Shown here: one piece after another, positions 3,360 through 30,612 of the stretch
How the letters are laid out: every line of letters begins with the position of its first letter
How positions within the stretch are numbered: position 1 is the first letter of the stretch
Source of the DNA: Deltaproteobacteria bacterium HGW-Deltaproteobacteria-15
GTDB lineage: Bacteria; Desulfobacterota; DSM-4660; Desulfatiglandales; HGW-15
DNA: 64,000 nt
NCBI GenBank assembly: GCA_002840535.1
Contig: PHBH01000028.1
Span: 109,932 to 173,931, forward strand
Direction: 5' to 3'
The notes under the pieces: generated by a model
The model's database searches: none
The model's input: only the letters and a program-made list of their open reading frames with translations
What the model was told of the DNA's origin: nothing
Translations under genes and position numbers: made by a program

Positions 3360-4064
3360 GTGATGCTTGCCTCTGCGTGTCTCTTGCTTTTCATGGTTCC
3401 CCTTCTGACTTTGTTGCGGACCCGGGGAACAAATGTTCCCGCGGAGTTGTCTCAAAGAGCAGAGGGGCACCTGGGAAAAGCGGAGGAAGATTTCGAGCTT
3501 GTTTCTGCTGCTCAGGCGGGTGAAGTCGCCGCATTCGAGAAACTTGTCAGGAAATACCAGAAGAGGATGCTCAATATCGCTTACCGGATGATCGGGGATT
3601 ACGAGGATGCCTGCGAAACCGTGCAGGAGACGTTTCTCTCCGCTTATCGATCCATAAAACGTTTCAGGAAGGAAGCCGCGTTCTCCACCTGGCTGTGCGC
3701 GATCTGCCTGAACCACGCTAAAAATCGTCTGAAGAAGACGAGAAACAAGGCCCGGCACGAGGTGCAGCCGATGGACGACCTGCTGGAGACGGAAGAGAGT
3801 GCATTCGCTCGTGAGACCGCTTCGGATTGCCTTTCCGTCATTGAGCAGATGGAGCGGAAAGAGGTGCAGGAGAAGGTGCAGGAATGCATGAATGGACTGG
3901 ACGACGAATACCGGGAGGTTCTCGTCCTGCGGGATATCCAGGGATTCTCCTATGAGGAGATCAGCGCTATCCTGAATGTCCCGGATGGGACGGTAAAATC
4001 GCGCCTTTTCAGGGCGAGGGACGGTTTGAAGAACAGCCTGAAGAAAACGCTTGGGGAACTCTGA
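3360..4064 (+). CDS. ECF-subfamily RNA polymerase sigma factor (RpoE-like); start uncertain
   Basis: The protein contains region 2 (FEKLVRKYQKRMLNIAYRMI, then QETFLSAYRSIKRF and FSTWL) and region 4 (LDDEYREVLVLRDIQGFSYE followed by EISAILNVPDGTVKSRLFRA), the standard two-domain ECF layout. The GTG/ATG start of the ORF adds a hydrophobic stretch (LACLLLF-like) that is foreign to sigma factors. An ECF promoter at 3426-3454 lies inside this 5' part, so translation from that promoter must start downstream; CTG at 3471 would give a product beginning just before KAEEDFELVS. The stop overlaps the anti-sigma start by one base, showing translational coupling. It should direct transcription of itself and of the VIT/VWA gene. 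Confidence 0.9.
   Translation: MMLASACLLLFMVPLLTLLRTRGTNVPAELSQRAEGHLGKAEEDFELVSAAQAGEVAAFEKLVRKYQKRMLNIAYRMIGDYEDACETVQETFLSAYRSIKRFRKEAAFSTWLCAICLNHAKNRLKKTRNKARHEVQPMDDLLETEESAFARETASDCLSVIEQMERKEVQEKVQECMNGLDDEYREVLVLRDIQGFSYEEISAILNVPDGTVKSRLFRARDGLKNSLKKTLGEL
3426..3454 (+). promoter_or_regulatory. ECF-sigma-type autoregulatory promoter
   Basis: GGAACAA (3426-3432), 16 bases, GTCTCA (3449-3454). Box sequences and spacing match the promoter of the divergent VIT/VWA gene. The -35 part overlaps a perfect palindrome GGGAACAAATGTTCCC (3425-3440), which may bind another regulator. Confidence 0.65.
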
Positions 4065-6823: not shown

Positions 6824-8113
6824 TTATCTTCTCCCGGAAAGACGCGCAAGGGTTCGGGTGGAGATCCCCAGCAGAAGGCCCGCAACCATCACTTGGTTGA
6901 GCATCGATGTTCGGACCGGACCGAATTCCCGCCATCGCCTTGCCGAGGTGATTATCGCGGCAGGCGCGGTTTCGACGCGGCCTTTTTTCAAGAGGCGACG
7001 CACCAGTAAGAAATCCTCACCCAGCGGGACCTCCGGGAATCCGCCCGCTGCCTCAAAGACCGATTTCTTCATGAAAAGGCCCTGATCCCCATAGGGCAGT
7101 CTGAGTATTCTACTCCTCATATTGGTGAGGAATTCGATGGCTCTCATGAGCGGTGTCCTGAGATCGGTTCGAAAGAGGAATGCGCCTGCTACCACCTCAG
7201 GGCTCATGAGCGTGTCAAATACATGCTCCACATAGGATCGGGGCAGGCAGGAATCGGCATGGAGGAAGAGCAGCACATCGCCCCTGGCTCGCTTAGCACC
7301 CGCATTCTGCTGCAAAGCTCGCCCTTTTCGGGTCTCCACTATGCAGGCGCCTGCCATGGCCGCCCTTGCCTGGGTGGAGTCTTTACTTCCCCCATCAACT
7401 ACGATGACCTCGGCATTGCATCCCGCGGCGGAGCGAATCGTCTTCTCGATATGCTCCTGTTCGTTCAGGGAAGGAATGATCACGGAGAGGTAAGGTTTCT
7501 TCTCTTCCCATTCAGGCAGGATCGCCCTCAGATCTTCCGGATCGTCGATGTCGGTCAGCGTTCCCAGGAGATGGACCCTGAGTCCTTGGACCTTTGCTCT
7601 TTGAATAGTCGTTTCAAGTACCGATTCGGTCCCCCATGGCATGTCTTCGAAAAGATCCGCCGGCCTCCTGAGCCCCACGAGCCAGTACCCGCCGTCCGTA
7701 CTCGGCCCGAGAACGAGATCTCTGTCTTCAAGATTGCTGAAGGCCTCTGCAAGGTGGGAAGATGTAAGCCCGGGTATATCCGTCCCGTGAAGCACAACCC
7801 TTCGGCAGCCGTCCTGGAACGGTTCATCCAGGGCAGCCTTCATCCGTTTCCCCAGATCTCCACCTTTTTGCATCGAGAAGAGGAAGCCGGGACCGAGCCA
7901 GCGGTTCATCTTCCGTTTGGTGGACCCGTCGAAGCAGACCTCTACATCCACCCTGCGGTCGGAAGAGAACCTTCGAACCTGGGAGAGGGTCTCCTCCGTG
8001 AGCCGGCGCTGGAGTTCCGCGGCTCTGGCTGAGCCGAGCCGTTGAATCAGCCTCGTCTTGACCTTTCCCGGTACAGGGTACCGGCCGAATACGATCAGCC
8101 GGTCAGGGTGCAT
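6824..8113 (-). CDS. Fused arsenosugar-type glycosyltransferases (rSAM/selenodomain-associated transferases 1 and 2)
   Basis: Two enzymes are joined in one 429-residue chain. Residues ~5-195 match the cofC-like nucleotidyl/glycosyl transferase family TIGR04282 (IVFGRYPVPGKVKTRL, HGTDIPGL, LGPSTDGGYWLVGL). Residues ~207-425 are a GT2-fold transferase of the TIGR04283 type (YLSVIIPSLNEQEHIEKTI, VVDGGSKDST, LFLHADSCLP). These two families are usually separate genes next to ArsS. It lies 162 bases downstream of arsS on the same strand, with AGAGG before its ATG. The role is inferred to be sugar transfer or activation in arsenosugar synthesis. Confidence 0.88.
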   Translation of the reverse strand: MHPDRLIVFGRYPVPGKVKTRLIQRLGSARAAELQRRLTEETLSQVRRFSSDRRVDVEVCFDGSTKRKMNRWLGPGFLFSMQKGGDLGKRMKAALDEPFQDGCRRVVLHGTDIPGLTSSHLAEAFSNLEDRDLVLGPSTDGGYWLVGLRRPADLFEDMPWGTESVLETTIQRAKVQGLRVHLLGTLTDIDDPEDLRAILPEWEEKKPYLSVIIPSLNEQEHIEKTIRSAAGCNAEVIVVDGGSKDSTQARAAMAGACIVETRKGRALQQNAGAKRARGDVLLFLHADSCLPRSYVEHVFDTLMSPEVVAGAFLFRTDLRTPLMRAIEFLTNMRSRILRLPYGDQGLFMKKSVFEAAGGFPEVPLGEDFLLVRRLLKKGRVETAPAAIITSARRWREFGPVRTSMLNQVMVAGLLLGISTRTLARLSGRR

Positions 8114-8250
8114 TCCAGCCTCTTGATCTCAGGCGCTATGTAAAGCATCGTGATCAGCATCCGTCATGGTTCCACTCTTTTAGTACTGCCACTAAGACAC
8201 AAAGACACCAAGAAAAGAAATTGTGCTCCTTTGTGTCCTGGTGCCTTTGT

Positions 8251-8299
8251 GGCGGCCTTCTCCCGAGACCCGAACTCAGGCCTTTATGGATCCGCCTCA
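8251..8299 (-). promoter_or_regulatory. SECIS-like hairpin after the in-frame UGA of arsS
   Basis: Directly after the UGA (8299-8297) the minus-strand RNA can form a lower stem GGCGG (8296-8292) with CCGCC (8255-8251), and an upper stem CCUGAG (8280-8275) with CUCGGG (8267-8262). The 7-base apical loop UUCGGGU contains the GGU typical of bacterial SECIS elements. The upper stem starts 16 bases after the UGA, close to the spacing in E. coli fdhF. Confidence 0.7.
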
Positions 8300-9247
8300 A
8301 GTAAACCCGGCCCCTGCAGTGCATGTGTAGCAGTGCTCCGCAGTCGCAATCGGCGTGCCCGGGAGAGGAGGACGTTGTGCTTCCGAAACATGAACTCTTC
8401 GTCCGCCCATAGGCAGGTCCGCGGCCAGATTGAAATCACAATCGTACAGGTAACCTTCCCAGGATACCGACACGAGGGATCTGCACATCACCCCTGCCAC
8501 AGCGCAAGGGTTGAAAGCTGAGGCGAGCCTCTGCAGGTAAGGGTCCAGATTGCCCGACTCCCTCAGCCATCGGCGAAACCGACCCAGGGGAGCATTTGCA
8601 AACGTGAAGAGATTGTGGAAAGAAAGGGACCATTTTTTCTGAAGGATTTCTCTGAATCTTTTTTCGGCCTGGCCCTGATCCGGGGGCAGAAAGGCGCCCG
8701 CCGGATTGGACACGAGATCGAGCTCATACTCGGACCCCTCCAGTCCATATCCCGCCTCATTGAGCTTTTTAATGGCCATCAGACTCGCCTGAAAAACCCC
8801 CCTGCCTCTTTGGGAATCGGTCTGCTGTTCATTCAGAGATGGAAAAGAGGCCACGATCGCCACGCGGTGACGTTTCAGTAGATCGAAAATCCGTTCCCCG
8901 GTTCGGCTGGAAAGGGCAGACAGGTTGGAGCGGAATAGGATCTTGCACGGCAGCGCTGCCAGCCCTTCGATAAGAACGTCTATCCAGGGGTTTAGTTCAG
9001 GGGCGCCTCCTGTGATATCCACCACGGGGAATCGTCCTCTCTCCGCATACACGACGACTTCCGACATGGTCTTCGGATCCATGACCTCGGTGCGGTCCGG
9101 TCCCGCGCTCAGGTGGCAGTGGTTGCACGTCTGATTGCAGAGGAAGCCCACGTTTATCTGCAACGTATCGCTATTCTTACGTTCCAGGCTGAGCCCGTTC
9201 CCCGCAAGGGTGCTGCGGAAAGGGAGGATTGGACCGGGCCGCATCAC
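8276..9247 (-). CDS. arsS: Arsenosugar biosynthesis radical SAM selenoprotein ArsS
   Basis: ArsS has the radical SAM cluster motif CNQTCNHCH (C-x3-C-x2-C) near residue 33, then DITGGAPELNPW, and a Cys-rich C terminus (CYTCTAGAG). It is thought to join the deoxyadenosyl group to arsenic in arsenosugar formation. The track stops at the TGA at 8297, after CTAGAGFT. Reading through gives CTAGAGFT-U-GGSIKA and then a TGA at 8276. Family members end CTAGAGSSC-G-G or similar, so the TGA sits exactly where Cys or Sec is expected, and a SECIS-like hairpin follows. The product is then 323 residues. The start overlaps the upstream peroxidase-like gene by ATGA. The family (TIGR04167) is known to include selenoproteins. 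Confidence 0.85.
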
Positions 9248-9576
9248 ATACCCATCTTTTCAGCGATGTTTCTCATCTGAACACCATGCACGAGGGAGGC
9301 GCCCCCCCGGATGGCGGTAGCCACATGAATCGCCTCGGTCATTTCTGCCGGATTCGACCCCTTTTCCAGACAGGTCTTCGTGTAAGCGTCAATGCAGTAA
9401 GGGCATTGGACGGCATGCGCTACGGCAAGCGCTATCAAGGCCTTTTCCCTTTCGGTGAGATTTCCTTCCGCAAAAACCGACGCGTAGTAGTCAAAGAACT
9501 TGGCCGCCAACTCAGGGGCCTCTTTCCCGATCTCCTCGAATTTCATAAGATCCTGCGGCTTGTAATAAGTGTCCAT
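9244..9576 (-). CDS. Arsenosugar-associated AhpD/carboxymuconolactone decarboxylase-like protein
   Basis: This 110-residue helical protein has the AhpD-type redox motif CPYCIDAYTKTC with the following HVATAIRGGASLVHG segment, as in the family found beside ArsS (arsenosugar biosynthesis-associated peroxidase-like). Two vicinal cysteines plus a third nearby suggest thiol-disulfide chemistry, perhaps reducing an arsenic or selenium centre. It is the first gene of the operon: GGAAGGAGAG precedes the ATG, and its stop overlaps the arsS start by four bases. Full family length. Confidence 0.9.
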   Translation of the reverse strand: MDTYYKPQDLMKFEEIGKEAPELAAKFFDYYASVFAEGNLTEREKALIALAVAHAVQCPYCIDAYTKTCLEKGSNPAEMTEAIHVATAIRGGASLVHGVQMRNIAEKMGM

Positions 9577-30320: not shown

Positions 30321-30350
30321 TTGACAGGATCGCCCGCTTCACCATATTGT
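30321..30350 (+). promoter_or_regulatory. Sigma-70 promoter of the cobalamin-uptake transcript
   Basis: TTGACA (30321-30326), 18 bases, TATTGT (30345-30350), immediately before the riboswitch. A 16-base alternative uses CATATT. Confidence 0.55.
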
Positions 30351-30358
30351 GAAATCAT

Positions 30359-30540
30359 TCAGGTGCCAACGCTCAATAGGGAATCCCGTGAAAGACGGGA
30401 GCGGTCCCGCCGCTGTGATCCTCCCCCGAAAATCAACGGGGAAGCAGCCTGCAGGCACTTTGCTGGACTGAGCCACTGTCCGGTTGAGCCGGATGGGAAG
30501 GTGGTCCTGCAGGAGGGGAGAGCCAGAAGACCTGCCTGAA
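30359..30540 (+). ncRNA. Cobalamin (AdoCbl) riboswitch
   Basis: All main landmarks are readable: AGGTGCC at the 5' end, GGGAATCCCGTGAAAGACGG with GGAGCGGTCCCGCCGCTGTG, the GCCACTG core box, GGGAAGG, and the B12 box AGCCAGAAGACCTGCC at 30530. The element precedes a FecCD-type permease, the usual target for corrinoid feedback control. Confidence 0.95.
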
Positions 30541-30612
30541 GATGAGATTCGGTCCCCCCCGGGGTATGCTTAGGGGCGGCTGAAGGATATGGGGATCAAG
30601 TAAACTGGGTGC

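Follow-up and report, generated by a model that had tools for sequence, protein, structure and literature searches.

The radical SAM family TIGR04167 has been listed among predicted selenoproteins with the motif GxxU (PMC13188914, PMC9312934), a prediction that these two reviews, where they cite it, trace to Zhang & Gladyshev 2005. Its members are ArsS proteins, and ArsS is presented, in the lines of PMC12159101 that cite Cheng 2021, as a radical SAM enzyme of arsenosugar biosynthesis, through which arsenic receives an adenosyl group; in a cyanobacterium it works with ArsM (PMC8552651). A Sec-type ArsM, of the form UxxG, is also listed as a selenoprotein (PMC13188914). We describe here an arsS gene with an in-frame UGA near its 3′ end; positions are those of the window, the whole 64-kb stretch of DNA that was analyzed, and the gene lies on its minus strand, which an earlier note on the same DNA had left unstated.

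The product resembles the TIGR04167 ArsS already described ("Radical SAM domain protein," GxxU, PMC13188914) in family, in C-terminal motif and in the place of the Sec residue, and the locus shares with it the AhpD-like and glycosyltransferase partner genes; it differs in details, namely an identity of at most 64% to the closest relative found, and the fusion of its TIGR04282 and TIGR04283 partners. Cys-type ArsS proteins (ending in GSSC or GFTC, as in the biochemically studied cyanobacterial enzyme referred to where PMC8552651 and PMC12159101 cite it) are alike in family, invariant cysteines and tail, but have Cys in place of Sec and lack the SECIS hairpin, which by the same criteria occurs in only one of 106 of their genes. 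With respect to the bacterial SECIS (PMC13188914), the hairpin of the window agrees in loop size, in having a G within the first two positions of the loop, and in spacing, stem and energy, but differs in that its apex contains the gene's own stop codon. The Sec-type ArsM (UxxG, PMC13188914) is likewise an arsenic enzyme with a UGA, and is present in this genome, but it is a different enzyme on a different contig (C3). The gene in the window is a new and well-supported member of an already listed family of predicted selenoproteins, and the idea itself is not new; what is added is modest, namely a refined SECIS and its overlap with the stop codon.

An arsS gene with an in-frame UGA and its neighbors

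The gene, its UGA codon and the two adjoining genes are the following:
8276..9247, minus strand: arsS, radical SAM (seleno)protein ArsS, 323 aa with the UGA taken as selenocysteine
8297..8299, minus strand: in-frame UGA, predicted to be read as selenocysteine 317; Cys (TGC/TGT) or UGA in all scored relatives
9244..9576, minus strand: AhpD-like protein TIGR04169 (perox_w_seleSAM), 197 bits; its 3′ end overlaps the start of arsS by 4 nt
6824..8113, minus strand: fused TIGR04282 (CofC-like) and TIGR04283 (glycosyltransferase) protein, 214 and 229.5 bits, both over the cut-off; downstream of arsS

From a GTG at 9247, the coding sequence runs down to 8300, where the deduced protein reads CTAGAGFT. 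The earlier note had described a radical SAM gene reaching a TGA after these residues, followed by U-GGSIKA and a second TGA, and this reading was confirmed from 8299 to 8276: the codons past the first UGA are GGC GGA TCC ATA AAG GCC, which give GGSIKA, and are followed by a second UGA at 8278-8276. ArsS scores 364.1 bits against TIGR04167 (curated cut-off, 300) and 369.2 bits with the tail through the UGA; moreover, a profile search of the whole genome aligned positions 2-303 of TIGR04167 with one TGA inside the match, so that the profile extends past the UGA. Standard gene calling stops ArsS at FT and loses the residue that is most likely functional.

Pfam recognizes DUF3641 and Radical_SAM in the deduced protein. 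The cysteines of the radical SAM motif CxxxCxxC (C37, C41, and C44) are invariant, as are C255, C270, C306, C309 and, save for the swap between Sec and Cys, residue 317; the C-terminal motif CTAGxG..[CU].G is present as CTAGAGFTUGG. An AlphaFold model of ArsS is confident in the core (mean pLDDT 93.8) and not confident from around residue 311 onward; judging from the model, this tail, which holds residue 317, is flexible. A fold search pointed to radical SAM enzymes generally; none of its top matches was an arsenic enzyme.

In 53 of 59 Sec-type loci, a TIGR04169 gene could be detected on the arsS strand, upstream of arsS, and the names given by NCBI to TIGR04167, TIGR04169 and TIGR04282/TIGR04283 tie all of them to arsenosugar biosynthesis or an association with it. 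The TIGR04282 and TIGR04283 modules, fused here, adjoin arsS in either order in other loci. Immediately after arsS there is an intergenic palindromic repeat some 70 bp long (8185-8256; GACACAAAGACACCAAG...CTTTGTGTCCTGGTG), and a search of the genome with it gave 46 matches listed, some of which are both strands of one place. Elsewhere in the window we found a cobalamin riboswitch (30344-30553, plus strand; 77.4 bits).

The UGA/Cys column across ArsS relatives and translation of the tail

ArsS genes were gathered from the same phylum and from named genomes, and duplicates were removed for the overall counts. The column that corresponds to residue 317 is occupied by UGA in 40 genes and by Cys in 48 within the phylum, and by UGA in 55 and Cys in 106 of the non-duplicate genes overall, with no UAA or UAG in any relative with a scorable motif. 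The earlier note had assigned the UGA to the position expected for Cys or Sec, and this assignment stands, as every scorable relative has a UGA or a Cys codon there; relatives with a sense stop in that column, which the note had named as evidence against its reading, were looked for and are absent. Sec-type proteins mostly end in GFT-U-GG[AS]I and Cys-type proteins in GSSC-GG, or in GFT-C-GG when they belong within the Sec clade. In a tree built with the Sec/Cys column masked, there are at least seven swaps between the two residues, of which at least three are forced by well-supported branches; the arsS gene of the window falls in a set of 13 genes, starred on the tree, that are all Sec.

Some relatives depart from these patterns. 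One Cys-type gene within the Sec clade (L092, G142:C342) keeps a decayed SECIS-like hairpin (18.2 bits) and looks like a recent change from Sec to Cys. A Sec-type relative (L140, around 3860-3910) lacks the HCYACTAG stretch ahead of GFTU, perhaps through a deletion or an assembly error. Two distant ArsS-like proteins (L097 and L110, from G128 and G289) show a variant tail, CTALYGTGCFG or CTALFGTGCFG, and sit on a long branch.

Among the Sec genes, variation past the UGA was not distributed evenly over codon positions. The entropies at positions 1, 2, and 3 were 0.17/0.66/1.69 for codon +1, 0/0/1.92 for codon +2, 1.22/0.63/1.72 for codon +3 and 0.29/0/1.43 for codon +4; in codons +1, +2, and +4, positions 1 and 2 are thus nearly fixed and position 3 is variable. 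Conservation at the first two positions together with freedom at the third indicates that the codons past the UGA are translated. Conservation past the UGA had been proposed by the earlier note as a check, and GG[AST]I is indeed kept in relatives. From codon +6 the pattern shifts, and all three positions of this codon are constrained or covarying, which is the mark of a hairpin.

The SECIS hairpin and the stop codon in its apex

Two further features overlap at the end of the gene:
8266..8283, minus strand: core of the bacterial SECIS hairpin, AGGCCUG-AGUU-CGGGUCU, identified from RNA fold, energy, spacing, covariation and a covariance model
8276..8278, minus strand: true stop codon UGA, in the SECIS apex, with U and G in the stem and A in the loop

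In RNA folding, the apical stem of minimum energy is AGGCCUG/CGGGUCU, closed by the loop AGUU. A 60-nt piece of the RNA folds with −21.3 kcal/mol (z of −2.13 vs. shuffles), and the isolated hairpin has −8.3 kcal/mol, which exceeds the published limit of −7.5 by only a modest margin. The loop of 4 nt and the upper stem of 7 bp lie within the consensus for bacterial SECIS elements as quoted in PMC13188914 (3–9 nt and 4–16 bp, respectively), as does the gap of 20 nt between the UGA and the loop (16–37 nt), and the G at the second position of the loop agrees with the consensus, in which one or both of the first two are G. Across 15 relatives in the same register, ungapped in an independent MAFFT alignment, 88.6% of the cells of this stem are paired and double changes number 10, a result that no shuffle out of 500 equaled; on 40 covariance-model matches, aligned by fitting to the structure, the figures are 90.5% paired, 35 double changes and 0/500 shuffles. 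A covariance model made from the 15 genes found the arsS SECIS as its sole match in the 64-kb window at E ≤ 1 (47.1 bits).

Of the 55 Sec genes, 44 have a hairpin located 18–23 nt past the codon and with an energy of −6 or lower; of the 106 Cys genes, one does. Among the remaining 36 long ORFs of the window, 3 have past their stop a hairpin of this kind as strong as that of arsS or stronger, and at least one of these resembles a terminator. In the fetched loci, 4% of the ORFs ending in TAA or TAG are followed by a hairpin of equal or greater stability. The hairpin by itself is therefore weak evidence, and the case rests on the position in the family, the translated tail and the covariation. 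In Rfam scans of the whole window and of 8180-8400, no SECIS was matched; the 8185-8256 repeat gave chance microRNA-like matches only.

The earlier note was right in placing a hairpin past the UGA, but had drawn it with the upper stem CCUGAG/CUCGGG, the loop UUCGGGU and the lower stem GGCGG/CCGCC. This structure can be drawn in the window, and its lower stem does form in the window's own minimum-energy fold, where the CCGCC is supplied by the edge of the 8185-8256 repeat, but this lower stem is not conserved in relatives. Over 15 relatives, CCUGAG/CUCGGG pairs in 48.5% of cells, with no covariation and with 459 of 500 shuffles pairing at least as well, against 88.6% and 0/500 for AGGCCUG/CGGGUCU; we consequently rejected it in favor of the latter as the conserved stem, and consider it extremely unlikely that it is the functional hairpin.

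The first stop codon occurs exactly at codon +7, in the apex of the hairpin, in 44 of the 55 Sec genes. The earlier note had set the true stop within the upper stem; it does lie inside the apex of the hairpin, although in the conserved stem its A falls in the loop. The stops at +7 of these 44 genes are 31 UGA, 13 UAG and no UAA, whereas UAA accounts for 14 of the 48 stops in the Cys genes of the phylum (Fisher p ~5e-5, an optimistic value because the sequences are related and hence dependent). UAA is likely absent because one of the first two loop positions in the apex has to be a G, which is brought by UGA followed by G or by UAG. We see about an even chance that in Sec-type ArsS the SECIS and the termination codon form a single object, in which the stop at +7 tops the hairpin and can supply the G of the loop, excluding UAA. 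A search of openly available papers found no reports of a bacterial C-terminal Sec with a stop codon overlapping the SECIS.

Selenocysteine machinery and the probable role of residue 317

The earlier note had also called for a search for sel genes elsewhere in the genome, and all the components sought were found: selA (E of 8.7e-159), selB (391 bits), selD (378 bits) and tRNA-Sec (on contig C37, 73.6 bits). All three outcomes that the note had named as refuting its reading have thus failed to appear. The contamination of the genome bin is 7.89%, but the sel and ArsM contigs agree with the window in composition: their tetranucleotide correlation (r) with it is 0.89–0.95, and that of pieces of other genomes is 0.50–0.68. 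The selD gene itself has an in-frame UGA (KGAG-U-ASK; L010, G000:C54:11150-15070), and SelD of this genome is probably a selenoprotein. There are two ArsM genes, of which the one on C3 (L118, G000:C3:44949-48734) contains an in-frame UGA (YTG-U-VAGA) and is probably a second arsenic enzyme here that is a selenoprotein. Over other genomes, selB is above its cut-off in 35 of 37 with Sec-ArsS vs. 36 of 43 with Cys-ArsS, such that its presence agrees with Sec-ArsS but separates little in this phylum. One genome that is 92% complete (G344) carries two UGA-ArsS genes (L087 and L089) and no selB above the cut-off, either because the gene is missing from the bin or because its SelB is divergent.

The reading frame, the family, the swap between Sec and Cys, the covarying SECIS and the Sec machinery are all observed here; from them we infer Sec insertion itself, and the gene of the window almost certainly encodes a selenocysteine-containing ArsS. 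Taken alone, a C-terminal UGA means termination, and hairpins of comparable or greater strength also follow the stops of three further long ORFs in the window, which would fit an ArsS that ends at the first UGA and has lost its last residues, with the downstream codons as leftovers of a Cys ancestor. Nevertheless, GG[AST]I persists in tens of relatives with freedom at the third codon position, together with a covarying hairpin and the Sec machinery, and decay would not preserve tail, hairpin and machinery, which makes such a truncation very unlikely. An extended protein with a conserved tail would also be expected if the UGA were read through at a low level, or under a reassigned code (e.g., UGA as Trp), with a residue other than Sec. 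However, the UGA alternates solely with Cys codons in every scored relative, a full set of Sec genes is present in the genome and TGA is a normal stop of other genes here, so that we give this second possibility next to no probability.

With UGA read as Sec, SelB carrying Sec-tRNA-Sec would recognize the hairpin 20 nt past the UGA, and the ribosome would put Sec at residue 317, translate GGSIKA and terminate at the second UGA, itself part of the same SECIS hairpin. By analogy with ArsS elsewhere, the enzyme most likely attaches a 5′-deoxyadenosyl group to methylated arsenic coming from ArsM. Sec317, in a short and presumably flexible tail beside the invariant pair C306/C309, would probably bind or reduce the arsenic substrate, and may thereby do the job of the Cys found in other ArsS proteins.

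With its overlapping stop codon, this SECIS offers a neat case for how one hairpin handles recoding and termination. If the two do form a single object, Sec insertion and termination would be jointly selected, and SelB bound to the apex would have to depart before the stop is read. Likewise, the clean set of ArsS genes assembled here (55 Sec, 106 Cys), for which the tree shows seven swaps or more, makes the contribution of selenium to an arsenic radical SAM enzyme testable.
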